NCBI GenBank assembly: GCA_020002185.1
Contig: CM034533.1
Coordinates: 73,186,805-73,250,804, forward strand
DNA length: 64,000 nucleotides
Direction of reading: 5' to 3'
DNA from: Paraescarpia echinospica
Lineage: Eukaryota; Annelida; Polychaeta; Sabellida; Siboglinidae
The notes under the pieces are model-generated. The model did not search any database, was not told the DNA's origin, and saw nothing but the letters and a program-made list of their open reading frames with translations. A program made the position numbers and the translations under genes. This document shows positions 1 through 61,379 of this stretch, in pieces; the first letter of the stretch is position 1, and the number at the start of each line of letters is the position of its first letter.

Positions 1-620
1 NNNNNNNNNNNNNNNNNNNNNNNNNNNNNNNNNNNNNNNNNNNNNNNNNNNNNNNNNNNNNNNNNNNNNNNNNNNNNNNNNNNNNNNNNNNNNNNNNNNN
101 NNNNNNNNNNNNNNNNNNNNNNNNNNNNNNNNNNNNNNNNNNNNNNNNNNNNNNNNNNNNNNNNNNNNNNNNNNNNNNNNNNNNNNNNNNNNNNNNNNNN
201 NNNNNNNNNNNNNNNNNNNNNNNNNNNNNNNNNNNNNNNNNNNNNNNNNNNNNNNNNNNNNNNNNNNNNNNNNNNNNNNNNNNNNNNNNNNNNNNNNNNN
301 NNNNNNNNNNNNNNNNNNNNNNNNNNNNNNNNNNNNNNNNNNNNNNNNNNNNNNNNNNNNNNNNNNNNNNNNNNNNNNNNNNNNNNNNNNNNNNNNNNNN
401 NNNNNNNNNNNNNNNNNNNNNNNNNNNNNNNNNNNNNNNNNNNNNNNNNNNNNNNNNNNNNNNNNNNNNNNNNNNNNNNNNNNNNNNNNNNNNNNNNNNN
501 NNNNNNNNNNNNNNNNNNNNNNNNNNNNNNNNNNNNNNNNNNNNNNNNNNNNNNNNNNNNNNNNNNNNNNNNNNNNNNNNNNNNNNNNNNNNNNNNNNNN
601 NNNNNNNNNNNNNNNNNNNN
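1..620. other. Assembly gap (N run)
   Basis: All bases are N. The first readable base, 621, lies inside an exon of the tandem array, and by alignment that exon should begin near 595. The array therefore continues into the gap, and its true left edge, the 5' end of the gene and any signal peptide exon are outside what can be read. Confidence 1.
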
Positions 621-3600
621 AGTGGATCGACTGAAGGGTCGACCTCGGAAGCGACAACAGAAGCAGTCGCAACAAGTACGAGTGAAGAAACTACGCAGGC
701 AGCTGAAACAATGATCGAAGGTAAATACCACCCTTCTCTAATTGAAAAAACAATTCCCAATATAAAAAAGTGAATGCACACATGGTATAGATACAGAAAT
801 CAGATATAATATGTAATATTATAATAGTTAATAAAAAAAAAACATTTCTAGAGCATCGCAAAATTTCTTTGTCCGATTTATATATTTTGTACAATTGATT
901 ATATTTTATTCGAACAGTTGATTAGTCTTTAACTATGTGACATTATCTTGATTGCAATACAATTCTTTTTATGTATAAAATGTGTAATGTCATGCAGAGT
1001 AACGACAATAAAAATATTATATTTCTTTAAAAAGTAGACCAAAAATTTCGATGAGTGTAAAATACTATCGTTGTCTTACATGCAGGGCTGTTTCTAATCT
1101 CACATCTATTTAACAGCGTCGGCCACCGCCTCGGTGGACACAACAGGATCGACTGAAGGCTCGACCACGGAAGCGACAACAGAAGCAGTCGCAACAAGTA
1201 CGAGTGAAGAAACTACGCAGACAGCTGAAACAACGAGCGAATGTAAATACCATCCTTTCCTAACTGATAAAACAATTCAAAATATAATAAAGTGAATGCA
1301 CACATGGTATAGTTATAGTAATCGGATATAATATGTTATATTATAATAGTTAATAAAAAAAAACATTTCTAGAGTATCGCGAAAATCTTTGTCCGATGAC
1401 ATGATGTGTAAATAATTGAACTCGATTTTATTCGAACAATTAATTAGACTGAACTATGTGACATTATCGTATCGCAATACAATTATTATAAACGTGTATT
1501 AAGTCATAGTCACGAAAATAAAAGTTTTATTTATCAAAGGTAGACCGTACTGATCAGTGTAAAATATTATCGATGTCTTACATGCAAGGCTATTTTTAAT
1601 CTCACATCTATTTAACAGCGTCGACCACCGCCTCGGTGGACACAACTGGATCGGCTGAAGGTTCGACCTCGGAAGCGACAACAGAAGCAGTCGCAACAAG
1701 TAAGAGCGAAGAATCTACGCAGACAGCTGAAACAACGAGCGAAGGTAAATACCACCCTTTCCTAACTGACAAAACAATTCAAAATATAATAAAGTGAATG
1801 CACACATGGTATAGTTACAGTAATCGGATATAATATGTTATATTATAATAGTTAATAAAAAAAAACATTTCTAGAGTATCGCGAAAATCTTTGTCCGATG
1901 ACATGATGTGTAAATAATTGAACTCGATTTTATTCGAACAATTAATTAGACTGAACTATGTGACATTATCGTATCGCAATACAATTATTATAAATGTGCA
2001 ATAAGTCATAGATTAACGGCAATAACAAAATATTTTATTTTTAAAAAGTAGACCGTACTGACCAGTGTAAAATGCTATCGTTGTCTTACATGAGGGTTGT
2101 TTATAATCTCACATCTATTTAACAGCGTCGATCACCGCCTCGGTGGACACAACTGGATCGACTGAAGTTTTGACCTCGGAAGCGACAACAGAAGCAATCG
2201 CAACAAGTACGAGTGAAGAAACTACGCAGACAGCTGAAACAACGAGTGATAGTAAATACCACTCTTTCCTAACTGATCAAACAATTCACAATATAATCAA
2301 GTGAATGCACACGTGGTATAAATTAAGTAATCGGATATAATATGTGATATTATAATTACTAATAAAAACATTTTTCTAGAGTATCGCGAAGATCTTTGTC
2401 CGATCATATAATGTGTAAATAATTGAACTCGATTTTATTCGAACAATTGATTAGACTAAACTATGTGACATTATCATATCGCAATACAGTTATTATAAAC
2501 GTGTAATAAGTCATACAATCACGAAAATAAAAGGTTTATTTATCAAAGGTAGACCGTACTGATCAGTGTAAAATATTATCGTTGTCTTACATGCAGGGCT
2601 ATTTTTAATCCCACATCTATTTAACAGCGTCGTTGGACACAAGTGGATCGACTGAAGGTTCGACCTCGGAAGCGACAACAGAAGCAGTCGCAACAAGTAC
2701 GAGTGAAGAAACTACGCAGGCAGCTGAAACAATGATCGAAGGTAAATACCACCCTTTTCTAACTGAAAAAACAATTCCCAATATAATAAAGTGAATGCAC
2801 ACATGGTATAGATACAGAAATCAGATATAATATGTAATATTATAATAGTTAATAACAAAAAAACATTTCTAGAGCATCGCAAATTTCTTTGTCCGATTAT
2901 ATATTGTGTATACAATTGGACTAGATTTTCTTCGAACAATTGATTAGTCTTAACCATGTCACATTATCATATCGCAACACAATTACTATAAATGTGTAAT
3001 AAGTCATAGAGTAACGACAATAAAAATATTATATTTTTAAAAAGTAGGCCGTACTGATCAGTGTAAAATACTATCGTTGTCTTACATGCAGGGCTGTTTT
3101 CAATCTCACATCTATTTAACAGCGTCGACCACCGCCTCGGTGGACACAACTGGTTCGACTGAAGATTCGTCCACGGAAGCGAAAACAGAAGTAGTCGCAA
3201 CAAGTACTAGCGAAGAAACTACGCAGACAGCTGAAACAACGAGCGAAGGTAAATACCACACTTTCCTAATTGTCAAAACAATTCACAATATAATAATGTG
3301 AATGCACACATGGTATAGATACAGTAATCAGATATAATATGTTATATTATAATAGTTAATAATAAAAATAATTTCTAGAGCATCGCGACGTTCATTGTCC
3401 GATTATATATTTTGTATACAATAGGATTAGATTTTATTCGAACAATTGATTAGCCTTAACCATGTGACATTATCATATTGCAATACAATTATTATAAATG
3501 TGTAATAAGTGATAGAGTAACGACAATAACAATATTTTATTCTTAAAAAGTAGACCGTACTGATGAGTGTAAAATACTATCGTTGTCTTACATGCAGGGC

Positions 3601-6277
3601 AGTTTCTAATCTCACATCTATTTAACAGCGTCGACCACCGCCTCGGTGGACACAACAGGATCGACTGAAGGTTCGACGTCGGAAGCGACAACAGAAGCAG
3701 TCGCAACAAGTACGAGTGAAGAAACTTCGCAGACGGCTGAAACAACGAGCGAATGTAAATACCATCCTTTCCTTACTGATAAAACAATTAACAATATAAT
3801 AATGTGAATGCACACATGGTATAGATACAGTAATCGGATATAATATGTTATATTATAATAGTTAATAAAAAAAAAACATTTCTAGAGCATCGCGAATATC
3901 TTTGTCCGATGACATGATATGTATATAATTGAACCCGATTTTATTCGAACAATTAATTAGACTGAACTATGTGACATTATCGTATCGCAATACAATTATT
4001 ATAAATGTGCAATAAGTCATAGATTAACGGCAATAACAAAATATTTTATTTTCAAAAAGTAGACCGTACTGACCAGAGTAAAATGCTATCGTTGTCTTAC
4101 ATGCAGGGTTGTTTATAATCTCACATCTATTTAACAGCGTCGACCACCGCCTCGGTGGGCACAACTGGATCGACTGAAGTTTTGACCTCGGAAGCGACAA
4201 CAGAAGCAATCGCAACAAGTACGAGTGAAGAAACTACGCAGACAGCTGAAACAACGAGCGATAGTAAATACCACTCTTTCCTAACTGACCAAACAATTCA
4301 CAATATAATAAAGTGAACGCACACGTGGTATAAATTAAGTAATCGGATATAATATGTGATATTATAATAACTAATAAAAACATTTTTCTAGAGTATCGCG
4401 AAGATCTTTGTCCGATCATATAATTTGTAAATAATTTAACTCGATTTTATTCGAACAATTGATTAGACTAAACTATGTGACATTATCATATCGCAATACA
4501 ATTATTATAAACGTGTAATAAGTCATAGTCACGAAAATAAAAGTTTTATTTATCAAAGGTAGACCGTACTGATCAGTGTAAAATATTATCGATGTCTTAC
4601 ATGCAAGGCTATTTTTAATCTCACATCTATTTAACAGCGTCGACCACCGCCTCGGTGGACACAACTGGATCGACTGAAGGTTCGACCTCGGAAGCGACAA
4701 CAGAAGCAGTCGCAACAAGTAAGAGCGAAGAAACTACGCAGACAGCTGAAACAAAGAGCGAAGGTAAATACCACCCTTTCCTAACTGACAAAACAATTCA
4801 CAATATAATAAAGTGAATGCACACATGGTATATATAGAGAAATCAGATATAATATGTTATATTATAATAGTTAATAAAAAAAAACATTTCTAGAGCATCG
4901 CGAATTTCTTTGTCCGATTATATATTTTGTATACAATTGGATTATATTTTATTCGAACAGTTGATTAGTCTTAACCATGTGACATTATCTGATTGCAATA
5001 CAATTTTTATAAATGTGTAATAAGTGATAGAGTAACGACAATAAAAATATTTTATTTTTAAAAAGTAGACCGTACTGATGAGTGTAAAATACTATCGTTG
5101 TCTTACATGCAGGGCTGTTTCTAATCTCACATCTATTTAACAGCGTCGGCCACCGCCTCGGTGGACACAACAGGATCGACTGAAGGTTCGACCTCGGAAG
5201 CGACAACAGAAGCAGTCGCAACAAGTACGAGTGAAGAAACTACGCAGACGGCTGAAACAACGAGCGAATGTAAATACCATCCTTTCCTAACTGATAAAAC
5301 AATTCAAAATATAATAAAGTGAATGCACACATGGTATAGTTACAGTAATCGGATATAATATGTTATATTATAATAGTTAATAAAAAAAAACATTTCTACA
5401 GTATCGCGAAAATCTTTGTCCGATGACATGATGTGTAAATAATTGAACTCGATTTTATTCGAACAATTAATTAGACTGAACTATGTGACATTATCGTATC
5501 GCAATACAATTATTATAAACGTGTATTAAGTCATAGTCACGAAAATAAAAGTTTTATTTATCAAAGGTAGACCGTACTGATCAGTGTAAAATATTATCGA
5601 TGTCTTACATGCAAGGCTATTTTTAATCTCACATCTATTTAACAGCGTCGACCACCGCCTCGGTGGACACAACTGGATCGGCTGAAGGTTCGTCCACGGA
5701 AGCGAAAACAGAAGTAGTCGCAACAAGTACTAGCGAAGAAACTACGCAGACAGCTGAAACAACGAGCGAAGGTAAATACCACACTTTCCTAAGTGTCAAA
5801 ACAATTCACAATATAATAATGTGAATGCACACATGGTATAGATACAGTAATCAGATATAATATGTTATATTATAATAGTTAATAATAAAAATCATTTCTA
5901 GAGCATCGCGACGTTCATTGTCCGATTATATATTTTGTATACAATAGGATTAGATTTTATTCGAACAATTGAATAGTCTTAACCATGTGACATTATCATA
6001 TTGCAATACAATTATTATAAGTGTGTAATAAGTGATAGAGTAACGACAATAAAAATATGTTATTCTTAAAAAGTAGACCGTACTGATGAGTGTAAAATAC
6101 TATCGTTGTCTTACATGCAGGGCAGTTTCTAATCTCACATCTATTTAACAGCGTCGACCACCGCCTCGGTGTACACAACTGGATCGACTGAAGTTTTGAC
6201 CTCGGAAGCGACAACAGAAGCAATCGCAACAAGTACGAGTGAAGAAACTACGCAGACAGCTGAAACAACGAGCGATA
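621..6277 (+). CDS. Exons 1-12 of the mucin-like array
   Basis: Exons: 621-720 (5' part in gap), 1117-1242, 1619-1744, 2126-2251, 2628-2741, 3123-3248, 3629-3754, 4138-4263, 4638-4763, 5144-5269, 5646-5771, 6152-6277. Exon 5 (2628-2741) is 114 bp: four codons are missing just after the acceptor, so it begins A-S-L-D-T-S-G instead of A-S-T-T-V-S-L-D, and the frame is kept. Exon 6 carries the variant DSSTEAKTEVVA. Exons 2, 7 and 10 end in gaat (junction codon Ser). Exons 4, 8 and 12 end in gata (junction Thr). The rest end in g (junction Ala). Introns here range from 374 to 396 bp. Exon 11 is a hybrid: its 5' half matches exon 3 and its 3' half matches exon 6. Confidence 0.75.
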
Positions 6278-9200
6278 GTAAATACCACTCTTTCCTAACT
6301 GACCAAACAATTCACAATATAATAAAGTGAATGCACACGTGGTGTAAATTAAGTAATCGGATATAATATGTGATATTATAATTACTAATAAAAACATTTT
6401 TCTAGAGTATCGCGAAGATCTTTGTCCGATCATATAATGTGTAAATAATTGAACTCGATTTTATTCGAACAATTGATTAGACTAAACTATGTGACATTAT
6501 CATATCGCAATACAATTATTATAAACGTGTAATAAGTCATACAATCACGAAAATAAAAGGTTTATTTATCAAAGGTAGACCGTACTGATCAGTGTAAAAT
6601 ATTATCGTTGTCTTACATGCAGGGCTATTTTTAATCCCACATCTATTTAACAGCGTCGACCACCGTCTCGTTGGACACAAGTGGATCGACTGAAGGTTCG
6701 ACCTCGGAAGCGACAACAGAAGCAGTCGCAACAAGTACGAGTGAAGAAACTACGCAGGCAGCTGAAACAATGATCGAAGGTAAATACCACCCTTTTCTAA
6801 CTGAAAAAACAATTCCCAATATAATAAAGTGAATGCACACATGGTATAGATACAGAAATCAGATATAATATGTAATATTATAATAGTTAATAACAAAAAA
6901 ACATTTCTAGAGCATCGCAAATTTCTTTGTCCGATTATATATTGTGTATACAATTGGACTAGATTTTCTTCGAACAATTGATTAGTCTTAACCATGTCAC
7001 ATTATCATATCGCAACACAATTACTATAAATGTGTAATAAGTCATAGAGTAACGACAATAAAAATATTATATTTTTAAAAAGTAGACCGTACTGATCAGT
7101 GTAAAATACTATCGTTGTCTTACATGCAGGGCTGTTTTCAATCTCACATCTATTTAACAGCGTCGACCACCGCCTCGGTGGACACAACTGGTTCGACTGA
7201 AGATTCGTCCACGGAAGCGAAAACAGAAGTAGTCGCAACAAGTACTAGCGAAGAAACTACGCAGACAGCTGAAACAACGAGCGAAGGTAAATACCACACT
7301 TTCCTAAGTGTCAAAACAATTCACAATATAATAATGTGAATGCACACATGGTATAGATACAGTAATCAGATATAATATGTTATATTATAATAGTTAATAA
7401 TAAAAATAATTTCTAGAGCATCGCGACGTTCATTGTCCGATTATATATTTTGTATACAATAGGATTAGATTTTATTCGAACAATTGATTAGTCTTAACCA
7501 TGTGACATTATCATATTGCAATACAATTATTATAAATGTGTAATAAGTGATAGAGTAACGACAATAAAAATATTTTATTCTTAAAAAGTAGACCGTACTG
7601 ATGAGTGTAAAATACTATCGTTGTCTTACATGCAGGGCAGTTTCTAATCTCACATCTATTTAACAGCGTCGACCACCGCCTCGGTGGACACAACAGGATC
7701 GACTGAAGGTTCGACGTCGGAAGCGACAACAGAAGCAGTCGCAACAAGTACGAGTGAAGAAACTACGCAGACGGCTGAAACAACGAGCGAATGTAAATAC
7801 CATCCTTTCCTAACTGATAAAACAATTAACAATATAATAAAGTGAATGCACACATGGTATAGATACAGTAATCGGATATAATATGTTATATTATAATAGT
7901 TAATAAAAAAAAAAACATTTCTAGAGCATCGCGAATATCTTTGTCCGATGACATGATATGTATATAATTGATCCCGATTTTATTCGAACAATTAATTAGA
8001 TTGAACTATGTGACATTATCGTATCGCAATACAATTATTATAAATGTGCAATAAGTCATAGATTAACGGCAATAACAAAATATTTTATTTTTAAAAAGTA
8101 GACCGTACCGACCAGTGTAAAATGCTATCGTTGTCTTACATGCAGGGTTGTTTATAATCTCACATCTATTTAACAGCGTCGACCACCGCCTCGGTGGACA
8201 CAACTGGATCGACTGAAGTTTTGACCTCGGAAGCGACAACAGAAGCAATCGCAACAAGTACGAGTGAAGAAACTACGCAGACAGCTGAAACAACGAGCGA
8301 TAGTAAATACCACTCTTTCCTAACTGACCAAACAATTCACAATATAATAAAGTGAATGCACACGTGGTATAAATTAAGTAATCGGATATAATATGTGATA
8401 TTATAATTACTAATAAAAACATTTTTCTAGAGTATCGCGAAGATCTTTGTCCGATCATATAATGTGTAAATAATTGAACTCGATTTTATTCGAACAATTG
8501 ATTAGACTAAACTATGTGACATTATCATATCGCAATACAATTATTATAAACGTGTAATAAGTCATACAATCACGAAAATAAAAGGTTTATTTATCAAAAG
8601 TAGACCGTACTGATCAGTGTAAAATACTATCGTTGTCTTACATGCAGGGCTGTTTTCAATCTCACATCTATTTAACAGCGTCGACCACCGCCTCGGTGGA
8701 CACAACTGGTTCGACTGAAGATTCGTCCACGGAAGCGAAAACAGAAGTAGTCGCAACAAGTACTAGCGAAGAAACTACGCAGACAGCTGAAACAATGATC
8801 GAAGGTAAATACCACCCTTTTCTAACTGAAAAAACAATTCCCAATATAATAAAGTGAATGCACACATGGTATAGATACAGAAATCAGATATAATATTTAA
8901 TATTATAATAGTTAATAACAAAAAAACATTTCTAGAGCATCGCAAATTTCTTTGTCCGATTATATATTTTGTATACAATTGGATTATATTTTATTCGAAC
9001 AGTTGATTAGTCTTAACCATGTGACATTATCTGATTGCAATACAATTTTTATAAATGTGTAATAAGTGATAGAGTAACGACAATAAAAATATTTTATTCT
9101 TAAAAAGTAGACCGTACTGATGAGTGTAAAATACTATCGTTGTCTTACATGCAGGGCAGTTTCTAATCTCACATCTATTTAACAGCGTCGACCACCGCCT

Positions 9201-45200: not shown

Positions 45201-48200
45201 TTCCCAATATAATAAAGTGAATGCACATATGGTATAGATACAGTAATCGGATATAATATGTTATATTATAATAGTTAATAAAAATATGTCTAGAGCATCG
45301 CGAATTTCTTTGTCCGATTATATATTGTGTATACAATTGGACTAGATTTTCTTCGAACAATTGATTAGTCTTAACCATGTCACATAATCATATCGGAACA
45401 CAATTATTATAAATGTGTAATAAGTGATAGAGTAACGACAATAAAAATATTTTATTCTTAAAAAGTAGACCGTACTGATGAGTGTAAAATACTATCGTTG
45501 TCTTACATGCAAGGCAGTTTCTAATCTCACATCTACTTAACAGTGTCGACCACCGCCTCGGTGGACATAACAGGATCGACTGAAGGTTCGACCTCGGAAG
45601 CGACAACAGTAGCAGTCGCAACAAGTACGAGTGAACAATCTACGCAGACAGCTGAAACAACGAGCGAATGTAAATACCATCCTTTCCTAACTTATAAAAC
45701 AATTAACAATATAATAAAGTGAATGCACACATGGTATAGATACAGAAATCAGATATAATATGTAATATTATAATAGTTAATAAAAAAAAACATTTCTAGA
45801 GCATCGCGAATTTCTTTGTCCGATTATATATTGTGTATACAATTGGACTAGATTTTCTTCGAACAATTGATTAGTCTTAACCATGTCACATTATCATATC
45901 GCAACACAATTAATATAAATGTGTAATAAGTCATAGAGTAACGACAATAAAAATATTATATTTTTAAAAAGTAGACCGTACTGATCAGTGTAAAATACTG
46001 TCGGTGTCTTACATGCAGGGCTGTTTTCAATCTCACATCTATTTAACAGCGTCGGCAACCGCCTCGGTAGACACAACTGGTTCGACTGAACGTTCGTCCT
46101 CGGAAGCGACAACAGAAGCAGTCGCAACAAGTACGAGCGAAGAAACTACGCAGACAGCTGAAACAACGAGCGAAGGTAAATACCACCCTTTCCTAACTGA
46201 CAAAACAATTCACAATATAATAAAGTGAATGCACAGATGGTATAGATACAGAAATCAGATATAATATGTTATATTATAATAGTTAATAATAATAAAAATT
46301 CTAGAGCATCGCGACTTTCATTGTCCGATTATATATTTTGTATACAATAGGATTAAATTTTATTCGAACAATTGATTAGTCTTAACCATGTGACATTATC
46401 ATATTGCAATACATTTATTATAAATGTGTAATAAGTGATAGAGTAACTACAATAAAAATATTTTATTCTTAAAAAGTAGACCGTACTGATGAGTGGAAAA
46501 TACTATCGTTGTCTTACATGCAGGGCAGTTTCTAATCTCACATCTATTTAACAGCGTCGACCACCGCCTCGGTGGACACTACTGGATCGACTGAAGGTTC
46601 GACCTCGGAAGCGACAACAGAAGCAGTTGCAACAAGTACGAGTGAAGAAACTATGCAGACAGCTGAAACAAAGAGCGAAGGTAAATACCATCCTTTCCTA
46701 ACTGATAAAACAATTCACAATATAATAAAGTGAATGCACACATGGTATAGATACAGTAATCGGATATAATATGTTATATTATAATAGTTAATAAAAAAAA
46801 CATTTCTAGAGCATCGCGAATATCTTTGTCCGATGACATGATGTGTAAATAATTGAACTCGATTTTATTCGAACTATTAATTAGACTGAACTATGTGACA
46901 TTATCGTATCGCAATACAATTATTATAAATGTACAATAAGTAATAGATTAACGGCAATAACAAAATATTTTATTTTTAAAAAGTAGACCGTACTGATCAG
47001 TGTAAAATACTATCGTTGTCTTACATTCAGGGTTGTTTATAATCTCACATATATTTAACAGCGTCGACCACCGCCTCGGTGGACACAACTGGATCGACTG
47101 AAGTTTTGACCTCGGAAGCGACAACAGAAGCAGTCGCAACAAGTACGAGTGAAGAAACTACTCAGACAGCTGAAACAATGATCGAAGGTAAATACCACCC
47201 TTTCCTAACTGATAAAACAATTCCCAATATAATTAAGTGAATGCACAGATGGTACAGTTAGAGTAATCGGATATAATATGTTATATTATAATAGTTAATA
47301 AAAAAAACATTTCTTGAGCATCGCGAATTTCTTTGTCCGATTATATATTGTGTATACAATTGGACTAGATTTTCTTCGAACAATTGATCAGTCTTAACTA
47401 TGTCACATTATCAAATCGCAACACAATTATTATAAATATGTAATAAGTCATAGAGTAACGACAATAAAAATATTATATTTTTAAAAAGTAGACCGTACTG
47501 ATCAGTGTAAAATACTATCATTGTCTTACATGCAGGGCTGTTTTCAATCTCACATCTATTTAACAGCGTCGACCACCGCCTCGGTGGACACAACTGGATC
47601 GACTGAAGGTTCGACCTCGGAAGCGAAAACAGAAGCAGTCGCAACAAGTACGAGCGAAGAAACTACGCAGACAGCTGAAACAACGAGCGAAGGTAAATAC
47701 CACCCTTTCCTAACTGACAAAACAATTCACAATATAATAAAGTGAATGCACAGATGGTATAGATACAGAAATCAGATATAATATGTTATATTATAATAGT
47801 TAATAATAAAAAAAATTCTAGAGCATCGCGACTTTCATTGTCCGATTATATATTTTGTATACAATAGGATTAGATTTTATTCGAACAATTGATTAGTCTT
47901 AACCATGTGACATTATCATATTGCAATACAATTATTATAAATGTGTAATAAGTGATAGAGTAACTAAAATAAAAATATTTTATTCTTAAAAAGTAGACCG
48001 TACTGATGAGTGGAAAATACTATCGTTGTCTTACATGCAGGGCAGTTTCTAATCTCACATCTATTTAACAGCGTCGACCACCGCCTCGGTGGACACTACT
48101 GGATCGACTGAAGGTTCGACCTCGGAAGCGACAACAGAAGCAGTTGCAACAAGTACGAGTGAAGAAACTATGCAGACAGCTGAAACAAAGAGCGAAGGTA

Positions 48201-51200
48201 AATACCATCCTTTCCTAACTGATAAAACAATTCACAATATAATAAAGTGAATGCACACATGGTATAGATACAGTAATCGGATATAATATGTTATATTATA
48301 ATAGTTAATAAAAAAAACATTTCTAGAGCATCGCGAATATCTTTGTCCGATGACATGATGTGTAAATAATTGAACTCGATTTTATTCGAACTATTAATTA
48401 GACTGAACTATGTGACATTATCGTATCGCAATACAATTATTATAAATGTACAATAAGTAATAGATTAACGGCAATAACAAAATATTTTATTTTTAAAAAG
48501 TAGACCGTACTGATCAGTGTAAAATACTATCGTTGTCTTACATTCAGGGTTGTATATAATCTCACATATATTTAACAGCGTCGACCACCGCCTCGGTGGA
48601 CACAACTGGATCGACTGAAGTTTTGACCTCGGAAGCGACAACAGAAGCAGTCGCAACAAGTACGAGTGAAGAAACTACTCAGACAGCTGAAACAATGATC
48701 GAAGGTAAATACCACCCTTTCCTAACTGATAAAACAATTCCCAATATAATTAAGTGAATGCACAGATGGTACAGTTAGAGTAATCGGATATAATATGTTA
48801 TATTATAATAGTTAATAAAAAAACATTTCTTGAGCATCGCGAATTTCTTTGTCCGATTATATATGGTGTATACAATTGGACTAGATTTTCTTCGAACAAT
48901 TGATCAGTCTTAACTATGTCACATTATCAAATCGCAACACAATTATTATAAATATGTAATAAGTCATAGAGTAACGACAATAAAAATATTATATTTTTAA
49001 AAAGTAGACCTTACTGATCAGTGTAAAATACTATCATTGTCTTACATGCAGGGCTGTTTTCAATCTCACATCTATTTAACAGCGTCGACCACCGCCTCGG
49101 TGGACACAACTGGATCGACTGAAGGTTCGACCTCGGAAGCGAAAACAGAAGCAGTCGCAACAAGTACGAGCGAAGAAACTACAAAGACAGCTGAAACAAC
49201 GAGCAAAGGTAAATACCACCCTTTCCTCACTGTGAAAACAATTCACAATATAATAAAGTGAATGCACAAATGGTATAGATACAGAAATCAGATATAATAT
49301 GTTATATTATAATAGTTAATAAAAAAAAAAACATTTCTAGAGCATCGCGACTTTCTTTGTACGATTATGTATTTTGTATACAATTGGATTAGATTTTATT
49401 CGAACAATTGTTTAGTCTTAACCATGTGACATTATCATATTGCAATACAATTATTATAAATGTGTAATAAGTGATAGAGTAACGACAATAAAAATATTTT
49501 ATTCTTAAAAAGTAGACCGTACTGATGAGTGTAAAATACTATCGTTGTCTTACATGCAGGGCAGTTTCTAATCTCACATCTATTTAACAGCGTCGACCAC
49601 CGCCTCGGTGGACACAACAGGATCGACTGAAGGTTCGACCTCGGAAGAGACAAAAGAACCAGTCGCAACAAGTACGAGTGAAGAAACTACGCAGACAGCT
49701 GAAACAACGAGGGAAGGTAAATACCATCATTTCCTAACTGATAAAACAATTCACAATATAGTTAAGTGAATGCACACATGGTATAGATACAGTAATCGGA
49801 TATAATATGTTATATTATAATAGTTAATAAAAAATAACATTTCTAGAGCATCGCGAATATCTTTGTCCGATGACATGATGTGTAAATAATTTAACTCGAT
49901 TTTATTCGAACTAATAATTAGACTGAACTATGTGACATTATCGAATCGCAATACAATTATTATAAATGTACAATAAGTAATAGATTAACGGCAATAAAAA
50001 TATTATATTTTTAAAAAGTAGACCGTACTGATCAGTGTAAAATACTATCGTTGTCTTACATGCAGGGCTTTTTTCAATCTCACATCTATTTAACAGCGTC
50101 GACCACCGCCTCGGTGAACACAACTGGATCGACTGAAGGTTCGACCTCGGAAGCGACAACAGAAGCAGTCGCAACAAGTACGAGTGAAGAAACTACGCAG
50201 ACAGCTGAAACAACGAGCGAAGGTAAAAACCATCATTTCCTAACCGATAAAACAATTCACAATATAATAAAGTGAATGCACACATGGCATACCTACAGCA
50301 ATCGGATATAATATGTTATATTATAATAGTTAATAAAGAAAAACATTTCTAGAGCATCGCGAAAATCTTTGTCCGATGACATGATATGTAAATAACTGAA
50401 CTCGATTTTATTCGAACAATTGATTAGATTGAACAATGTGACATTATCGTATCGCAATACAATTATTATAAATGTGTAATAAGTCATAGAGTAACGACAA
50501 TAAAAAAAAAAAAATTAAAGTAGACCGTAATGATGAGTGTAAAATACTATCGTTGTCTTACATGCAGGGCTGTTTTTAATCTCACATCTATTTAACAGCG
50601 TCAACCACCGCCTCGGTGGACACAACAGGATCGACTGAAGGTTTGACCTCGGAAGCGACAACAGAAGCAGTCGCAACAAGTACGAGTGAAGAAACTACGC
50701 AGACAGCTGAAACAACGAGCGATGGTAAATACCACTCTTTCCTAACTGACCAAACAATTCTCAATATAATAAAGTGAATGCACACGTGGTATAGGTTTAG
50801 TAATCGGATATAATATGTGATATTATAATAACTAATAAAAACATTTTTCTAGAGTATCGAGAAGATCTTTGACCAATCATATAATGTGTAAATAATTGAA
50901 CTCGATTTTATTCGAACAATTGATTAGACTAAACTATGTGACATTATCATACCGGAATACAATTATTATAAATGTGTAATAAGTCATACAGTCACAAAAA
51001 TAAAAGGTTTATTTATCAAAGGTAGACCGTACTGATCAGTGTAAAATATTATCGTTGTCTTACATGAAGGGCTGTTTTTAATCTCACATCTATTTAACAG
51101 CGTCGACCATCGCCTCCGTGGACACAACTGGATCGACTGAAGGTTCCACCTCGGAAGCGACAAAAGAAGCAGTCGCAACAAGTACGAGTGAAGAAACTAC

Positions 51201-54200
51201 GCAGACAGCTGAAACAACGATGGAAGGTAAATACCACCCTTTCCTAACTGACAAAACAATTCCCAATATAATAAAGTGAATGCACACATGGAATAGTTAC
51301 AGTAATCGGATATAATATGTTATATTATAATAGTTAATAAAAAATATTTCTAGAGCATCGCGAATTTCTTTGTCCTATTATATATTGTGTATACAATTGG
51401 ACTAGATTTTATTCGAACAATTGATTAGTCTTAACCATATGACATTATTATATCGCAATACAGTTATTATAAATGTGTAATAAGTCATACAGTAACGACA
51501 ATAAAAATATTTTATTTTTAAAAAGAAGAACGTACTGATCATTGTAAAATACTATTGTTGTCTTACATGCCGGGCTGTTTTTAATCTCACATCTATTTAA
51601 CAGCGTCGACCACCGCCTCGGTGGACACAACTGGATCGACTAAAGTTTTGACCTCGGAAGCGACAACAGAAGCAGTCGCAACAAGTACGAGTGAAGAAAC
51701 TACGCAGACAGCTGAAACAACGAGAGAAGGTAAATACCACTCTTTCCTAACTGACAGAACAATTCACAATATAATAAAGTGAATGCACACGTGGTATAGA
51801 TTTAGTAATCGGATATAATATGTGATATTATAATAATTAATAAAAACATTTTTCTAGAAAATCGCGAATATCTTTGTCCAATCACATGATGTGTAAATAA
51901 TTGAACTCGATTGTATTCGAACAATTGATTAGACTGAACTATGTGAGATGATCATATGACAATACAATTATTATAAATGTGTAATAAGTCATAGAGTAAC
52001 GACAATAAAAAATATTTTATTTTTAAAAAGTAGACCGTACTGATCAATGTAAAATACTATCGTTGTCCTACATGCAGGGCTGTTTTTAATCTCACATCAA
52101 TTTAACAGCGTCGACCACCTCCTCGGTGGACACAACTGGATCGACTGAAGGTTTTACCTCGAATGCGACAACAGAAGCAGTCGCAACAAATCCGAGTGAA
52201 GAAACTACGCAGACAGCTGAAACAAAGAGCGATGGTAAATACCACTCTTTCCTAACTGACCAAACAATTCACAATATAATAAAGTGAATGCACACGTGGC
52301 ATAGATTTAGTAATCGGATATAACATGTGATATTATAATAACTAATAAAAACATTTTTCTACAGTATCGCGAAGATTTTTGTCCGATCATATAATGTGTA
52401 AATAATTGAACTCGATTTTATTCGAACAATTGATTAGACTAAACTATGTGACATTATCATATCGCAATACAATTATTATAAATGTGTAATAAGTCATAGA
52501 GTAACGACAATAAAAATATTTTATTTTTAAAAAGTAGACCGTACAGATCATTGTAAAATACTATCGTTGTCTTACATGCAGGGCTGTTTTTAATCTCACA
52601 TCTATTTAACAGCGTCGACCTCCGCCTCGGTGGACACAACTGGATCGACTGAAGGTTCGATCTCGGAAGCGACAACAGAAGCAGTCACAACTAGTTCGCT
52701 CAAAGAAACAACGCAGACTTTTGAAACAACGAGCGAAGGTAAATTCCTCGCATTCATTTCGGTCAAAATCTTAATATATAATTATATAAACATATTTTTG
52801 GAAACATATGCAGGGCTGCATTTAATCTTGTGTGTCTTTAGCAGCGTCGACCACCGCATCAGTGGAGACCATTGGATCGACAGAAAGCTTGTCATCGGAA
52901 GCGAAAACAGAAACATTCTCAACAAGTACGATCGAAGGAACAACGCAGCCTGTTGAAACAACGAGCGAAGGTGAATACCACCCATTCCTAACTGACAACA
53001 AAATTCTCAATATAATGAAGTGAATGCACACGTGGTATAGATATAGTAATCGTATATAATATGTGATATTATAATAATTAATAAAAACTTTTTTCTAGAG
53101 CATCGCGAATATCTTTGTCCGAAGATATAATGTGTAAATAATTTAACTCGATTTTATTCGAACAATTGATTAGACTGAACTGTGTGACATTATCTTATCG
53201 CAATAGAATTATTATAAATGTGTAATAAGTCATACAGTCACGAAAATAAAAGGTTTATTTGTCAAAAGTAGACCGTACTGATCAGTGTAAAATATTATTG
53301 TTGTCTTACATGCAGGGCTGTTTTTAATCTCACATCTATTTAATAGTATTGACCACCGCCTCGGTGGACACAACTGGATCGACAGAAGGTTCGACCACGG
53401 AAGCGACAACAGAAGCAGTCGCAACAAGTACGAGCGAAGAAACTACGAAGACAACTGAAACAACGAGTGAAGGTAAATACCACCCTTTCCTAACTTACAA
53501 AACAATTCACAATATAATAAACGTGAATGCACACATGGTATAGATACAATAATCGGATATAATATGCTGTATTATAATAGTCAATAAAAAAAACATTTCT
53601 ACAGCATCGCGAATTTCTTTGTTCGATGATGTATTGTGTATACAATTGGACTAGATTTTATTCGAACAATTGACTAGTCTTAACGATGTGACATTATCAT
53701 ATCGCAATACAATTATTGTAAATGTGTAATAAGTCATACAGTAACGACAATAAAAATATTTTATTTTTAAAAAGTATACCGTACTAATCAATGTAAAATA
53801 CTATCATTGTCTTACACGTATGGCTGTTTTTAATCTCACATCTATTTAACAGCGTCGACCACCGCCTCGGTGGACACAACTGGATCGACTGAAGGTTCGA
53901 CCTCGGAAGCAACAACAGAAGCAGTCGCAACAAGTACGAGCGAAGAACCTACGCAGACAGCTAAAACAACGAGCGAAGGTAAATTCCTCGCATTCATATA
54001 GTTAAAAAAACTCATTATATAATGATATAAACATATTATTCGATAAATATGCAGGGCTGCTTTTAATATGGTGTGTCTTTAGCAGCGTCGAGCACCGCCT
54101 CGTTTGAGACCAATGGATCGACAGATAGCTTTTCCTCCTCAGCAACAACAGAAGCAGTCGCAACAAGTACGATCGAAGAAACGACACAAGCTATTGAAAC

Positions 54201-56051
54201 TATGAGCGAAGGTAAATACCTCTCGTTCTAGCTGACAAAACCTCTTAACATAATGACGTTAACATATACATTTATTAACGAATTGCTTGGTTATATAGTG
54301 TATAGTAAAAGCAACATATTAACATGAAGTTGTTGGAATATTGTACAAAAGCTTAGATGTTTTTTAAATGCACAACTTGATATATGCCGAAAATTACATT
54401 CAACGATGTTTCTTAAAACAAACTCTGCTAACAAATAAACTAGTTTTCACTCCATACAAGAATAGCTGTGACCGCCATTGACTATTACAAAAGAAACAAT
54501 ATTAAGAGTAAAATGCAGTGTTGATGCCGATTCCTTGTTAAACTGCGATTGTAGCAAGTACTACAACCGACACGACCACTATTTCTGAAGAATCATCTAC
54601 AGCCACGCCATCTACAACCGAATCGATGGTGACCAGTACAATGGAGATAGAAAGTTCGACTGCTTCAGGTAAACACCTGCGATTGTTCTCAGCTTCAGAT
54701 ACGTTTTTATAAGTTACCGACAATTCACCAGTGAATAATCCAACGTGTGCTTCCGTGCATGTTGGGAAGAGTTGTCTACCCACAATTTAGAAAATATACA
54801 ACAGGAGTCATAACGATAGAGAAGCGTATTGACAGTTGGGATTTACATACATGACTTTCATTGTAAAGACACGAAATAGTTGATTTTGCTGACAATAAAT
54901 ATATTATTCAATCAGCAGCTACTTCCGCTTCAACGACTGTTGAGTCGATGAAAACCACCGATGGAGTGACGTCAGCAGAAGCCGTCGTCGAGTGTAGGGA
55001 GATGTATTAAATTACATTGCCATTGAATAGATTAAAAATAAGGGACAATGAATTATTATCGGTCAATATAATGACTTTAAACGTGTAACGATTCATATTG
55101 TAAGGAAAGCGATAGCATATCTAGGAAACGGTGATCTTCATTTCAGCATAAAACATATTATTCGAAACATATGCAGGGCTGCTTTTAATCTGGTGTGTCT
55201 TTAGCAGTGGAGACCATTGGATCGACAGAAAGTTTGTCATCGGAAGCGACAACAGAGACAGTCTTAACAAGTACGATCGAAGTAACAACGCCGCCTGTTG
55301 AAACATCGAGCGAAGGTATATACCACCCTTTCGTTACTAACAAAACAATTCCCAATATAATAATTTGAATGCACACATGGTATAGATACAGTGATCGGAT
55401 ATAATATGCTATATTATAATAGTTAATAAAAAAACATTTCTACAGCATCGCGAATTTCTTGATCCGATTATATATTGTGTGTACAATTGGACTAGATTTT
55501 ATTCGAACACTTGATTATTCTTAAGCATGTGACATTATCATATCGCAATACAAATATTGTTAATGTGTAATAAGTCTTACAGTAACGACAATAAAAATAT
55601 TTTGTTTTTTAAAAGTAGACCGTCCTGATCAGTGTCAAAATACTATCGTTGTCTTACACGCTGGGCTGTTTTTAATATCACATCTATTTAACAGCGTCGA
55701 CCACCGCCTCGGTGGACACAACTGGATCGCCTGAAGGTTCGACCTCGGAAGCGACAACAGAAGCAGTCGCAACAAGTACGAGCGAAGAAACTACGCAGAC
55801 AGCTGAAGCAAAGGATGATGGTGAATTCCTCCTATTCATATGTTTTAAAACTCACTATATAATTATATAAAGATATTCTTCTAAAAATATGCAGGGCTGC
55901 TTTTAATCTGTTGTGTCTTTAGGAACCTCGACCACCGCCTCGTTGGAGACCACTGGACTGACAGAAAGCTTTTCATCGGAATCGACAACAAAAGCTATCT
56001 CTACAAGTACGATCGAAGAAACAACGCAGCCTGTTGAAACTACGAGCAAAG
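621..56051 (+). CDS. Giant mucin-like Ser/Thr-rich protein gene, 113 tandem exons, partial at both ends
   Basis: Seen: 113 exons on the plus strand, each after an AG acceptor (usually ttaacag) and before a gt donor (usually gtaaat). Of these, 107 are exactly 126 bp. The others are a gap-truncated 100 bp, then 114, 114, 75, 108 and 129 bp. All are phase 1-1: the last base of one exon plus the first two of the next make one codon. The joined product is about 4,700 residues with no stop. The consensus 42-residue unit runs from STTASVDTTGSTEGS through SEATTEAVATSTS to EETTQTAETTSE. It has no Cys and is rich in Thr, Ser, Glu and Ala. Family knowledge: such repeats are typical O-glycosylated mucin or mucin-like stalk regions. 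Inference: a secreted or surface mucin-like protein; no signal peptide, anchor or globular domain lies in the window to confirm this. Exons are visibly richer in GC than the introns. No known gene is recognised. Confidence 0.75.
2616..8302 (+). repeat. 4,038-bp offset duplication of a four-unit block
   Basis: Exons 5-8 match exons 13-16 with offsets of 4,038-4,039 bp (3123 to 7161, 3629 to 7667, 4138 to 8177). The same four-type block appears again 6,073 bp further on, as exons 25-28 (6654 to 12727, 7161 to 13234, 7667 to 13740). This four-type order appears to be a basic higher-order unit of the left half of the array. Confidence 0.8.
6654..12350 (+). CDS. Exons 13-24 of the mucin-like array
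   Basis: Exons: 6654-6779, 7161-7286, 7667-7792, 8177-8302, 8679-8804, 9186-9311, 9695-9820, 10195-10320, 10701-10826, 11209-11334, 11715-11840, 12225-12350; all are 126 bp. Exons 13-16 repeat the order of exons 5-8 at an offset of 4,038-4,039 bp. Exon 13 restores the four codons missing from exon 5. Exon 17 is a clear hybrid: it starts as the DSSTEAK type and ends in TMIE, the tail of the exon 13 type. Exon 21 has Pro in QTPETT instead of QTAETT. Exon 22 has the gata end, but its intron downstream switches to the aatgtgaatg type, another recombinant. Confidence 0.75.
12727..16396 (+). CDS. Exons 25-32 of the mucin-like array
   Basis: Exons: 12727-12852, 13234-13359, 13740-13865, 14249-14374, 14749-14874, 15255-15380, 15765-15890, 16271-16396; all are 126 bp. 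Exons 25-28 repeat the four-type order of exons 13-16 at 6,072-6,073 bp. Exon 31 has Glu for Asp in SVETT. Exons 28, 29, 31 and 32 have the gata end. Exons 27 and 30 have the gaat end. Confidence 0.75.
16271..20941 (+). repeat. Tandem 1,515-bp three-unit higher-order repeat
   Basis: Exon starts 16773, 18288 and 19803 are spaced exactly 1,515 bp, as are 17280, 18795 and 20310, and 16271, 17786 and 19301. The intron haplotypes recur in the same order (cacgtggtgtaaa, then accctttt with cagaaatcag, then actttcctaagtg). The final copy is a recombinant, changing type within the unit beginning at about 20,240. Confidence 0.85.
16773..21955 (+). CDS. Exons 33-43 of the mucin-like array
   Basis: Exons: 16773-16898, 17280-17405, 17786-17911, 18288-18413, 18795-18920, 19301-19426, 19803-19928, 20310-20435, 20816-20941, 21325-21450, 21830-21955; all are 126 bp. 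Exons 33-35, 36-38 and 39-41 stand at 1,515-bp offsets. In the first two trios the types run TMIE-tail, DSSTEAK, gttttgacc; the third trio changes type in its later members. Exon 43 has an extra three A bases upstream (about 21,770), in the intron only. Confidence 0.75.
22336..24993 (+). CDS. Exons 44-49 of the mucin-like array
   Basis: Exons: 22336-22461, 22838-22963, 23345-23470, 23851-23976, 24360-24485, 24868-24993; all are 126 bp. Exons 44-46 match exons 50-52 at a constant offset of 3,038 bp. Exon 48 is the QTPETT type. The end of exon 49 is the left breakpoint of the 7,063-bp duplication that follows. Confidence 0.75.
24940..39065 (+). repeat. Tandem 7,063-bp higher-order duplication (two blocks of 14 units)
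   Basis: Block 1 is about 24940-32002 and block 2 about 32003-39065. Thirteen consecutive exon starts keep an exact 7,063-bp offset and the fourteenth 7,062. Rare private variants occur in both blocks: cgacg at the start of one exon, and the 9-bp deletion near 27,822 and 34,885. Both breakpoints fall in a stretch of about 35 bp, identical in both partners, in the second half of an exon, so the fusion created hybrid exon 63 without disturbing the frame. Confidence 0.88.
25374..32056 (+). CDS. Exons 50-63 of the mucin-like array (first copy of the 14-exon block)
   Basis: Exons: 25374-25499, 25876-26001, 26383-26508, 26889-27014, 27391-27516, 27889-28014, 28395-28520, 28903-29028, 29409-29534, 29909-30034, 30415-30540, 30924-31049, 31424-31549, 31931-32056; all are 126 bp. 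Exon 53 has cgacg after the acceptor (Ala-Thr instead of Ala-Ser). The intron before exon 55 lacks about 9 bp near 27,822. Exon 63 is a hybrid: its 5' part has the tctgaagcg type (as exons 56 and 70) and its 3' part the gata end. It is the crossover product at the block junction. Confidence 0.75.
32437..39118 (+). CDS. Exons 64-77 of the mucin-like array (second copy of the 14-exon block)
   Basis: Exons: 32437-32562, 32939-33064, 33446-33571, 33952-34077, 34454-34579, 34952-35077, 35458-35583, 35966-36091, 36472-36597, 36972-37097, 37478-37603, 37987-38112, 38487-38612, 38993-39118; all are 126 bp. Each of exons 64-76 stands exactly 7,063 bp from its partner in exons 50-62, and exon 77 stands 7,062 bp from exon 63. 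Private marks are shared, such as cgacg in exon 67 and the 9-bp intron deletion before exon 69. Only scattered single-base differences are seen, for example caacaatt against caacaagt in exon 70. Confidence 0.75.
39501..46175 (+). CDS. Exons 78-91 of the mucin-like array
   Basis: Exons: 39501-39626, 40007-40132, 40509-40634, 41015-41140, 41515-41640, 42021-42146, 42526-42651, 43028-43153, 43531-43656, 44037-44162, 44540-44665, 45042-45167, 45544-45669, 46050-46175; all are 126 bp. Exons 77-79 also match exons 56-58 at 10,598 bp. From exon 83 on, copies diverge more: STERSSSEA in exons 83 and 91, AVAIST with TTQ or TTQS in 85 and 89, REAVA and TSEGTT in exon 88, TSEQST in exon 90. All stay open. 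Exon 90 begins with Val-Ser because its first bases are tgtcg. Confidence 0.75.
43495..43530 (+). promoter_or_regulatory. Representative 3' splice site region of the array unit
   Basis: Shown for exon 86. The region runs from tgcaggg through a T-rich stretch and ctcacatctatt to ttaacag at 43530. Branch-point-like ttaat or ctaat and ctcac lie about 20-30 bp before the AG. Across the array the segment just upstream exists in four main forms: gcagtttctaatc, gctgttttcaatc, gttgtttataatc and gctatttttaatc. The final tttaacag is almost invariant; the TGCAG about 34 bp upstream is a conserved decoy AG. Confidence 0.6.
43537..43551. repeat. Representative exonic GC-rich inverted repeat
   Basis: CCACCG-CCT-CGGTGG starts seven bases into the exon: 6-bp perfect arms and a 3-nt loop. 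It is present in most A-type exons and encodes part of STTASVD. It is imperfect in the tctcgtt exon type and reduced to 4-bp arms (CCAC..GTGG) in B exon 105. In pre-mRNA it could fold immediately downstream of the 3' splice site. Whether this is selected or only a consequence of the codons is not known. Confidence 0.5.
43741..43759. repeat. Representative intronic inverted repeat, 8-bp arms with 3-nt loop
   Basis: TATAATAT, then GTT, then ATATTATA: the arms are perfectly complementary. The same element recurs in every roughly 380-bp intron I examined, about 90 bp after the donor. The loop varies as GTT, GTG, GTA or GCT while the arms stay constant in nearly all copies. Exceptions are TATAATCT (for example near 9,399, 24,064 and 37,691), TATAACAT near 52,320 and a changed loop near 8,890. 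Confidence 0.7.
46200..49208 (+). repeat. 1,517-bp three-unit duplication in the diverged right part
   Basis: Exon starts 46555, 47062 and 47567 pair with 48072, 48579 and 49083. They share rare marks not seen elsewhere: gcagttgcaac in the first exon, cattcaggg in the second acceptor region, gtacagttagagtaatcgg in the second intron, and tttcttgagc in the following stretch. Separate duplications have therefore occurred locally in this older part too. Confidence 0.82.
46555..52234 (+). CDS. Exons 92-103 of the mucin-like array (diverged right part)
   Basis: Exons: 46555-46680, 47062-47187, 47567-47692, 48072-48197, 48579-48704, 49083-49208, 49591-49716, 50097-50222, 50599-50724, 51101-51226, 51604-51729, 52109-52234; all are 126 bp. 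Exons 92-94 and 95-97 form a three-unit duplication at 1,516-1,517 bp. They share private marks such as Met in TMQTAE, cattcaggg before the exon, and the intron phrase cagttagagtaatcgg. Several copies carry unique substitutions: TSK in exon 97, KEPVA in exon 98, SVNTT in exon 99, SNATTEAVATNPSEE in exon 103. None introduces a stop or frameshift. Confidence 0.72.
52613..52738 (+). CDS. Exon 104, A type, followed by a 106-bp intron
   Basis: The exon is 126 bp, phase 1-1, with the standard ttaacag acceptor. It reads STSASVDTTGSTEGS then ISEATTEAVTTSSLKETT and QTFETTSE, so its second half departs from the main consensus (SSLKE, QTF). Its donor starts an intron of only 106 bp, quite unlike the roughly 380-bp introns to the left. 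That intron contains cctcgcattcat and leads directly to a B-type exon. Confidence 0.7.
52739..52844 (+). other. Short intron of the first A-B exon cassette
   Basis: This 106-bp intron starts gtaaattcctcgcattcat and ends cagggctgc..tgtgtctttagcag. Close relatives are 53979-54085 (107 bp) and 55821-55922 (102 bp). All three join an A exon to a B exon. The 3' part shares cagggctg..taatct with the main array acceptor region, so short and long introns are related at that end but not at the donor end. Confidence 0.7.
52845..52970 (+). CDS. Exon 105, B type
   Basis: The exon is 126 bp, phase 1-1. The acceptor region is tgtgtctttagcag, a NAGNAG site, so three extra bases (CAG) could be included. It reads STTASVETIGSTESLSSEA then KTETFSTSTIEGTT and QPVETTSE. 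The marks SVETI, TESLSSE, TSTIE and QPVETT define a second exon family. The donor is gtgaat. The intron after it (52971-53346) has the sequence type of the main array introns, which ties this exon family to the origin of the 505-bp unit. Confidence 0.7.
53347..53472 (+). CDS. Exon 106, A type
   Basis: The exon is 126 bp, phase 1-1. The acceptor is ttaatag and the first codons are altered, giving Val-Leu-Thr-Thr in place of Ala-Ser-Thr-Thr. It then follows the consensus with GSTEGSTTEATTEAVA and TSEETTKTTETTSE. The intron before it is 376 bp, of the main type. The copy has diverged but kept its frame. Confidence 0.7.
53853..53978 (+). CDS. Exon 107, A type, followed by a 107-bp intron
   Basis: The exon is 126 bp, phase 1-1, close to the consensus, with EEPTQTAKTTSE at its end. 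It is followed by the short intron 53979-54085 and a B exon, so exons 107 and 108 are one A-B cassette. The pair recurs at an offset of about 1.84 kb as exons 112 and 113. Confidence 0.7.
54086..54211 (+). CDS. Exon 108, B type
   Basis: The exon is 126 bp, phase 1-1, with a NAGNAG acceptor (tctttagcag). It reads SSTASFETNGSTDSFSSSA then TTEAVATSTIEETT and QAIETMSE. Its downstream intron (54212-54554) is of a different type from the main array, starting with cctctcgttctagctg. A related sequence follows exon 113. Confidence 0.68.
54212..54554 (+). other. Intron of a distinct type, partly duplicated at 56052
   Basis: This lies between exon 108 and the divergent exon 109. The phrases cattcaacgatg, aacatgaagttgttggaat and atttattaacga are also found after exon 113 (56052-56330). 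Exons 107-108 plus most of this intron were therefore duplicated as one piece at an offset of about 1.84 kb. No open reading frame of note is visible. Confidence 0.6.
54555..54668 (+). CDS. Exon 109, divergent Ser/Thr-rich exon (38 codons)
   Basis: The exon is 114 bp, phase 1-1, so it fits the same reading frame chain. The acceptor is gcgattgtag and the donor ttcag|gtaaac. It reads STTTDTTTISEESSTATPS then TTESMVTSTMEIESSTAS. It is not a copy of the A or B exon but has the same Thr/Ser/Glu bias. It may be a relic of the gene before the exon amplification. Assignment rests on splice signals, phase and composition only. Confidence 0.55.
54919..54993 (+). CDS. Exon 110, short divergent exon (25 codons), tentative
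   Basis: The exon is 75 bp, phase 1-1. The acceptor is atcagcag (NAGNAG). It reads TSASTTVESMKTTDG then VTSAEAVVE. The proposed donor gag-t|gtaggg is weak. The composition and the SASTTVES phrase fit the gene, and the phase is right, but the end could be elsewhere or the exon could be dead. Confidence 0.4.
55208..55315 (+). CDS. Exon 111, B type with shortened 5' end (36 codons)
   Basis: The exon is 108 bp, phase 1-1. The tctttagcag acceptor is followed directly by tggagacc, so six codons of the usual B exon are missing in frame. It reads VETIGSTESLSSEATTETV then LTSTIEVTTPPVETSSE. The donor is gtatat. Unlike the other B exons it is not preceded by an A exon and short intron; its upstream intron runs from 54994 to 55207. 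The following intron (55316-55694) is the main array type. Confidence 0.6.
55695..55820 (+). CDS. Exon 112, A type, followed by a 102-bp intron
   Basis: The exon is 126 bp, phase 1-1, close to the consensus with GSPEGS and an ending AEAKDD. The donor is gtgaat. The intron 55821-55922 is 102 bp and leads to exon 113, making the third A-B cassette. Confidence 0.68.
55923..56051 (+). CDS. Exon 113, B type with 43 codons; last recognised exon
   Basis: The exon is 129 bp, phase 1-1. Here the acceptor is tctttag with no second AG, so the exon starts three bases earlier than other B exons and adds one residue (Gly-Thr-Ser-Thr-Thr). It reads TSTTASLETTGLTESFSSES then TTKAISTSTIEETT and QPVETTSK. The donor is gtaaat. 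No further exon of this gene is recognised between 56052 and the gap at 56859; the 3' part of the gene must lie in or beyond the gap. Confidence 0.62.
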
Positions 56052-56858
56052 GTAAATACGTCCTATTCCGACTCTCAATATAATGACGATGACGTTAACT
56101 TATGCATTTATTAACGAACTGTTCGGATATATGGTGTATAGCAAATGCAAAATATTAACATGAAGTTGTTGGAATATTAACGAACGCTTACATATTGGTT
56201 AAAAGCGAAGTTGGTATATGCGGAAAATTACATTCAACGACGATTTTGCGATATGTTACTGGGGAAATTATGCCTAATCTGTGAAGTTATTGCTAACTTT
56301 TATATTAGTAAAATGGGTTCGGTGTTGTACCTATAAGGAGAGATTTGCCAGCAAAATGTGACCGATTTCAGAAACATTCTATTTTAGTCTTACTTAGTCT
56401 TAAAATATGAAGTCATCGCTTGATTAGCGGTCGTAGGCAGAAGAGTCGGAAAATACAATGCAAGGTCAACTATTCAACCATTCCAACAGTTGTAATAGTA
56501 ATTCAGTTTATAATGATTTGATTTGATTCAATGTGGACAATTGCAATGTGAGTGTAAACACTGACCTCGTCGTCCACGCTAGACTAGTTGACAAAGCCTA
56601 AGGGACAATACCCCATACATTGCCACGGAATTGAGTGACGCACGACCTTTGTACCCGCTACGATGCCACCCGGTGGAAGTCGAGGAGTGATAAGAGAACA
56701 AGATTCACCTATAAATAGACGTGGTCGATTGAAGAACTGAGTCAATATACGTAGGCCCTGTTAGGGTAGGCGTCCCAGTAGCGCCAGAGTAATGTCAACA
56801 ACCGCTAACATCCCAAATCAGACCATTTCCATCCCACAGTTTGATACAAGTTGATATG
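56052..56858. other. Unassigned sequence after the array, with a TATA-like box
   Basis: The first roughly 280 bp resemble the intron after exon 108. The rest is unique in the window. TATAAATA lies at 56710-56717. A stretch from about 56553 (TGTAAAC) to 56800 (GTCAACA) has TG..CA ends, weakly inverted, and a GC content unlike the array. It could be a solo LTR or a promoter fragment; I see no target-site duplication, primer-binding site or coding remnant. No exon of either flanking gene is recognised here. Confidence 0.35.
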
Positions 56859-61373: not shown

Positions 61374-61379
61374 CTACAC

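Follow-up and report, generated by a model that had tools for sequence, protein, structure and literature searches.

How more than one hundred near-identical short open frames, each set between the same splice signals, come to stand in a row on one strand is the question raised by a locus in the siboglinid annelid Paraescarpia echinospica, and with it comes a second, namely why the row lies isolated between two gaps of the assembly. We analysed a stretch of 64,000 bp, called the window here (C3:73186805-73250804, in an assembly of 1.08 Gb in which C3 measures 76.6 Mb). All coordinates are relative to the window, position 1 being its first base and negative numbers lying upstream. The region of interest is the contig piece at 621-56858, which has an assembly gap on either side.

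A profile search (nhmmer, one exon consensus) gives 111 exon matches between 621 and 56051, all of them on the plus strand, and two diverged exons (54555-54668 and 54919-54993) bring the total to 113, the number of consecutive exons reported in a preliminary description of this DNA. That description also had every exon open in a single symmetric phase, and this is what we find: the phase-1 frame is open in 111/111 matched exons and in both diverged ones (113/113 phase 1-1), and the other two plus-strand frames contain a stop in 72/111 and 111/111 matched exons. Its third point, a length of 126 bp for nearly all exons, is borne out by AG and GT lying exactly 126 bp apart in 107 of the 113; the other complete exons measure 114, 114, 75, 111 and 129 bp, each divisible by three, and one further exon is cut by the gap. 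The typical acceptor of the array is TTTAACAG and the typical donor GTAAATAC; at the positions expected from the profile, TTAACAG stands in 104/111 and the donor in 105/111. The consensus unit has 506 bp, made up of a 126-bp exon and a 380-bp intron, and some introns at the 3' edge have only about 106 bp (match spacings of 232-233). The core units of the window belong to about ten types, which follow no regular order, and exact duplications reach 1685 bp, with offsets such as 7063 bp. The array had further been said to run off both ends. The array is indeed cut at both edges of the piece, and this is because the piece sits between assembly gaps; in the in-place copy described below, the repeats give way on the 3' side to domain exons that are not repeats. 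The last part of the contig piece (56500-56858) carries a TATAAATAG motif, possibly the end of a mobile element, and the sequence right of the second gap (57859-64000), mostly minisatellite, has a strong C-over-G strand skew of about -0.5. The features are collected in Table 1.

Table 1. Features of the window, broken exons of the upstream copy and domain exons 3' of that copy (coordinates relative to the window)
Feature	Position	Strand	Basis or score
Assembly gap, remainder of a 1000-N gap starting before the window	1..620		
First visible array exon, A type, gap-cut; donor GTAAATAC	621..720	+	profile match
103 further A-type exons, phase 1-1, 126 bp (one of 114 bp at 2628-2741); introns about 380 bp except the last	1117..52738	+	
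F-type exon, preceded by a short (about 106 bp) intron	52845..52970	+	typed via counterpart in upstream copy
A-type exon, acceptor TTTAATAG	53347..53472	+	profile match
A-type exon, then short intron	53853..53978	+	profile match
B-type exon	54086..54211	+	typed via counterpart in upstream copy
C exon, 114 bp, phase 1-1, diverged	54555..54668	+	
D exon, 75 bp, phase 1-1, diverged	54919..54993	+	
F-type exon, shortened to 111 bp, phase kept	55205..55315	+	typed via counterpart in upstream copy
A-type exon, then short intron	55695..55820	+	profile match
Last visible exon, 129 bp, donor GTAAATAC	55923..56051	+	F type in one typing, B type in another
Start of the next intron, gap-cut	56052..56858	+	
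1000-N assembly gap	56859..57858		
Minisatellite-rich contig (37-, 33-, 25- and 57-bp main units), outside the gene fragment	57859..64000		
Broken A exon: in-frame stop, donor missing at its place	upstream copy		
Broken B remnant adjoining the A exon with the in-frame stop	upstream copy		
Two broken D exons: 24-bp-longer stretch including an in-frame stop	-168.5k and -165.4k		
Broken A exon: donor reads GA	upstream copy		
Repeat-like exon, 108 bp, phase 1-1	-94626	+	
Thr/Ser-rich exon, 132 bp, phase 1-1	-91394	+	
EGF exon, 117 bp, phase 1-1	-82872	+	E 3.1e-6
NIDO, one exon	about -79.3k	+	PF06119, E 3.1e-4, 21.2 bits (Pfam cut-off 25)
AMOP, two exons joined	-78.2k and -77.4k	+	PF03782, E 1.2e-4, 22.7 bits (cut-off 25)
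VWD, two exons	-73.3k and -70.2k	+	PF00094, 2.7e-12, above cut-off
EGF exons after VWD	-60.9k, -60.3k, -56.9k	+	PF07645, 5.2e-6 (at cut-off); PF00008, 2.9e-6 and 1.8e-4
Hydrophobic-segment exon, then roughly 80-90 open codons up to GTAAGT	-54.5k	+	exon bounds inferred from frame

The isolation of the piece appears to be a matter of assembly. Its 3' edge (51000-56858) aligns with -102843 to -96998 over 5859 bases at an identity of 99.03%, and the alignment stops at the gap. To the right of the second gap, 57859-66351 repeats, at 97.1% identity, the final 8.5 kb of the contig that precedes the first gap (-8890 to -380). Thus one and the same locus stands on both sides of a mucin array fragment, a probable assembly error. 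The piece is probably one haplotype's fragment, displaced by about 100 kb from its place, and the simplest reading is that the assembly retained both haplotypes and placed the 56-kb fragment of one of them at the join. Two copies on one chromosome sequence, about 100 kb apart, might also be taken for paralogous genes side by side, with the window piece as the second gene copy rather than the other allele. This we regard as unlikely, given that the piece lies between two 1000-N gaps, that the DNA flanking it is a single locus present twice (97.1% over 8.5 kb), and that its 3' edge is 99.0% identical to the other copy over 5.9 kb and ends at a gap.

Taken as two haplotypes, the copies differ strongly in the interior of the array. 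An exact counterpart in the other copy exists for 13 of 105 window units, and one with three differences or fewer for 71 of 105. Going back from the 3' end, the copies agree within five differences at each of the first seven positions; beyond them position-by-position agreement is mostly lost, with 18 matches in common order among the last 25 units at five differences. The interior repeat order of the two copies (80 by 83 units) agrees little better than shuffled order: at three differences or fewer, 23 matches can be ordered alike in both copies, where 60 shuffles gave 20.6 on average and 25 at most. At five differences the figure is 33, against a shuffle mean of 27.2 and maximum of 30, and a trace of the interior order may remain. 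Unequal exchange would be expected to leave such a picture, with the centre homogenised and reshuffled and the diverged edge stable. As all units are symmetric, exchange that falls within introns leaves the frame intact.

The upstream copy is longer and has two zones. On the plus strand, its gap-free stretch (-186999 to -67000) has 202 exon matches between -186760 and -94503, and 197 of them fit an open phase 1-1 model. Zone 1 (about -186.8k to -154.6k) consists of blocks of about 2.6 kb with the exon order A, A, B, C, D, E, F, in which the number of A exons varies; zone 2 (about -154.2k to -100.5k) is a single-exon A array like that of the window. Over the full stretch, 12 to 15 copies were matched for each of B, C, D, E and F, including some at the 3' edge. 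Five of the 202 exons are broken, three with an in-frame stop. In the two long D exons the extra piece corresponds to the reverse strand of a B exon, which suggests template switching inside the array. E exons (for example at -183.9k) have doubled acceptor AGs three bases apart; in 4 of 14 aligned E exons the near AG is lost and the far AG, three bases before it, is kept, and use of the far one would add one codon in frame. The modelled exons sum to 24,255 bp over 200 exons, about 24 kb with some broken ones poorly modelled, and the matched exons of this in-place copy would encode about 8,000 residues, the 5' part of the gene lying outside the count. Beyond the gap at -187999 to -187000, a block array of at least 12 kb (-199999 to -187999) with 33 further matches runs on the opposite strand; it is either another fragment or a scaffold error, that is, a mis-oriented contig.

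Whether the array is still coding is harder to judge from open frames, since the copies are related and 113 open frames are not 113 independent facts; distinct changes were counted instead. Two units of the 105 full-length ones (2616 and 55190) were set aside in the substitution count, as a deletion misplaces the exon start (in 55190, one of 15 bp), leaving 103 units, 86 of them distinct. Among these, 99 scorable distinct exon variants comprise 71 nonsynonymous and 28 synonymous changes and no stops, where the intron's own mutation spectrum leads one to expect 5.3 stops in 99 (5.4%; P 0.004). With the F-type unit dropped as well, there are 63 nonsynonymous and 22 synonymous changes and 0/85 stops (P 0.009, ratio 1.14). 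Both probabilities are approximate because variants are shared by gene conversion, and the tests allow for kinship only in part. Indels tell in the same direction: the introns of the 105 units hold 20 distinct events, 17 of them not divisible by three and half in one A-rich run, and the exons hold two, of 12 and 15 bp, neither of which shifts the frame.

These results bear on the possibility of a satellite, decayed or untranslated, in which what was once an exon-intron unit has multiplied as repeat DNA and is no longer spliced. Variation among recent units is what such DNA would show: the nonsynonymous-to-synonymous ratio of the 103 units is 1.01, that is, neutral (pooled dN 0.074 and dS 0.083 within the recent array), exon variants per site equal those of the intron (0.80 vs 0.72 in window units), and the upstream copy contributes its five broken exons. 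Codon-position bias failed as a proof of coding, as all three positions vary alike within the recent array. The 14 aligned B-to-F copies of the 2.6-kb upstream block repeat this even variation, with 65 variants in 591 exon columns (0.110) and 91 in 910 intron columns (0.100). Their introns have indels of 4, 4 and 1 bp and their exons a single one, of 24 bp in D, and the B, C, E and F exons are open in 56/56 real translations. The 49 variants of these exons comprise 36 nonsynonymous and 12 synonymous changes and one stop, the stop arising because each change is placed alone on the consensus, whereas the translations show none; the D exons are in effect outside this count, only the two long D copies being gap-free. 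For older divergence, four B- or F-type exons set against the A consensus give dN/dS of 0.53, 0.42, 0.45 and 0.72, and among themselves the four give 0.43 to 1.2, including 0.83 and 1.2. Splice motifs vary less than random intron blocks at a marginal P of 0.057, suggestive only. We consider the satellite origin very unlikely in view of the 0 stops among 99 window exon variants, the window exon indels that are all multiples of three, the 56/56 open block exons and the domain set that follows the array in phase.

Over the 4611 residues of 110 window exons, the repeat has 33.1% Thr, 18.2% Ser, 16% Glu and 0.3% Pro. It is thus a Thr/Ser-rich tandem repeat as in the PTS domain of mucins, and with so little proline its composition is not the classical PTS one. 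A frame kept while residues drift within a Thr/Ser/Glu composition is the pattern that a glycosylated, unfolded stalk would show. Searches for homologues of the repeat gave one candidate with a single-exon open reading frame as query, none at E<=10, and no hit at E<=0.001 among 7994 candidates scored with a 10-exon chain; a 6-exon chain found no match in Pfam, nor a 2-exon chain in PDB sequences. An exact 30-base pattern occurred in 0 viral and 0 prokaryote contigs, a set that the window genome's own records may lie outside, and Rfam had 0 hits on the window at gathering score.

What points to the identity of the gene is the sequence 3' of the upstream copy. The preliminary description spoke of a giant mucin-like coding chain, and to this the upstream copy adds EGF, putative NIDO and AMOP, VWD, further EGF and putative transmembrane exons on the same strand and in compatible phase. 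Repeats, NIDO, AMOP, VWD, EGF and transmembrane segment follow one another in this order on one strand; VWD and EGF attain the Pfam curated cut-offs, and NIDO and AMOP have significant E-values yet score below them. For AMOP no single stretch passes alone, and CPCQWWQALFDPDY is present; VWD was scored on its two exons end to end, any exon between them left out, and the first carries the GDPH motif WGDPHIVTLDGLGYTYNGLGEYWLI. The list of domain exons is partial, in that some intermediate exons and the last exon were not found, and an assembly gap of 5 kb separates VWD from the later EGF exons. Between the Thr/Ser-rich exon and the first EGF exon lie about 8.4 kb with a LINE-like open reading frame, and the link between array and domains is one of strand, order and phase only. 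The open reading frame has 765 codons on the minus strand (-90999 to -88705) and by eye resembles a LINE reverse transcriptase. By its architecture, not by a tree, the gene may be filed as MUC4-type. That the mucin array and the NIDO-AMOP-VWD gene are two neighbours, as the roughly 11.6 kb with one Thr/Ser exon and the LINE-like frame between the last repeat-like exon and the EGF exon might suggest, is the least probable of the alternatives, since the exons at -94.6k and -91.4k and the EGF exon are all phase 1-1 on one strand and human MUC4 has the same order.

In all likelihood, then, the window piece comes from one haplotype of a giant MUC4-type transmembrane mucin gene and covers part of its repeat region, where each phase 1-1 exon would encode one 42-residue Thr/Ser/Glu repeat. 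As we picture it from the sequence, the exons would be spliced in order into one mRNA, and the repeats would be O-glycosylated into a long stalk displayed on the cell surface. Unequal exchange would make the array grow, shrink and homogenise; a damaged repeat exon could be skipped at little cost, and the array could tolerate a few broken copies. More tentatively, and with rather less than even confidence, we suggest that the locus acts as a dial of length and sequence. Each chromosome would carry hundreds of interchangeable symmetric exons, exchange would reshuffle them so fast that the haplotypes of one animal share little interior order, and broken repeat exons would be tolerated because splicing can drop them. 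Individuals would then have private mucins, and splicing could add length variation within an individual.

With both copies present in one assembly, the extent of reshuffling in such an array can be seen directly. The locus also poses a question of splicing, namely how over 100 nearly identical donors and acceptors pair in order. Genes of this kind are likely to escape gene predictors and short-read assemblies, or to be collapsed by them.

Human MUC4 has its repeats within a single large exon, whereas here each repeat has an exon of its own and an extra EGF exon precedes NIDO. The likeness lies in the Ser/Thr-rich tandem repeats followed by putative NIDO and AMOP domains, VWD, EGF-like domains, and a putative transmembrane segment and short cytoplasmic tail; the human protein, as outlined in PMC5354666, has a signal peptide, repeats, NIDO, AMOP, VWD, three EGF-like domains, a transmembrane segment and a short tail, and the same source calls NIDO-AMOP-VWD unique to MUC4 among membrane mucins. 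Sea anemone mucin4-like proteins are described as carrying NIDO-AMOP-VWD (PMC9080433), and a GDPH site is described for MUC4 (PMC8660890).

The preliminary description held that one repeat per exon sets this gene apart from most giant mucins. As an arrangement it is known, in chicken Muc13 (PMC1552070) and in Schistosoma SmPoMuc (PMC2576457), and it is the scale that we have not found elsewhere. According to PMC1552070, all mucins described before chicken Muc13 had their repeats in one large exon; its near-identical units have one exon each, and the authors proposed that length is controlled by splicing. The chicken gene, as given there, has at least 12 repeats of 20 residues and a SEA domain, whereas the annelid locus has over 100 to 200 exons, repeats of 42 residues, MUC4-type domains and two zones. 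SmPoMuc is reported to consist of tandem genomic units, each of one small repeat exon with flanking introns, with repeat number varying in transcripts (PMC2576457). Its exon is given as 27 bp in units of about 1 kb, up to about 20 per gene, compared with 126-bp exons in 506-bp units here, and the available text of PMC2576457 does not mention MUC4 domains. The PEVK region of titin is likewise a long run of repetitive exons, with 74-109 exons across 41 mammals and a length that varies by alternative splicing, as stated in PMC6469411; it differs in being an intracellular muscle spring and not an array of one near-identical unit. MUC16 (CA125) is, from the account in PMC3431878, also a large mucin whose genomic repeats include introns, and it differs in having five exons per 156-residue repeat and a SEA domain.

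Our literature search, in which subscription journals were thinly covered, found no mucin with over 100 repeat exons. As far as that search goes, the new features are the scale reached in a mucin, the MUC4-type frame, the division of the array into two zones and the presence of two reshuffled copies in one assembly. With the repeat region moved from one large exon to over 100 to 200 exons, recombination within introns, and possibly splicing, could alter the number of repeats.
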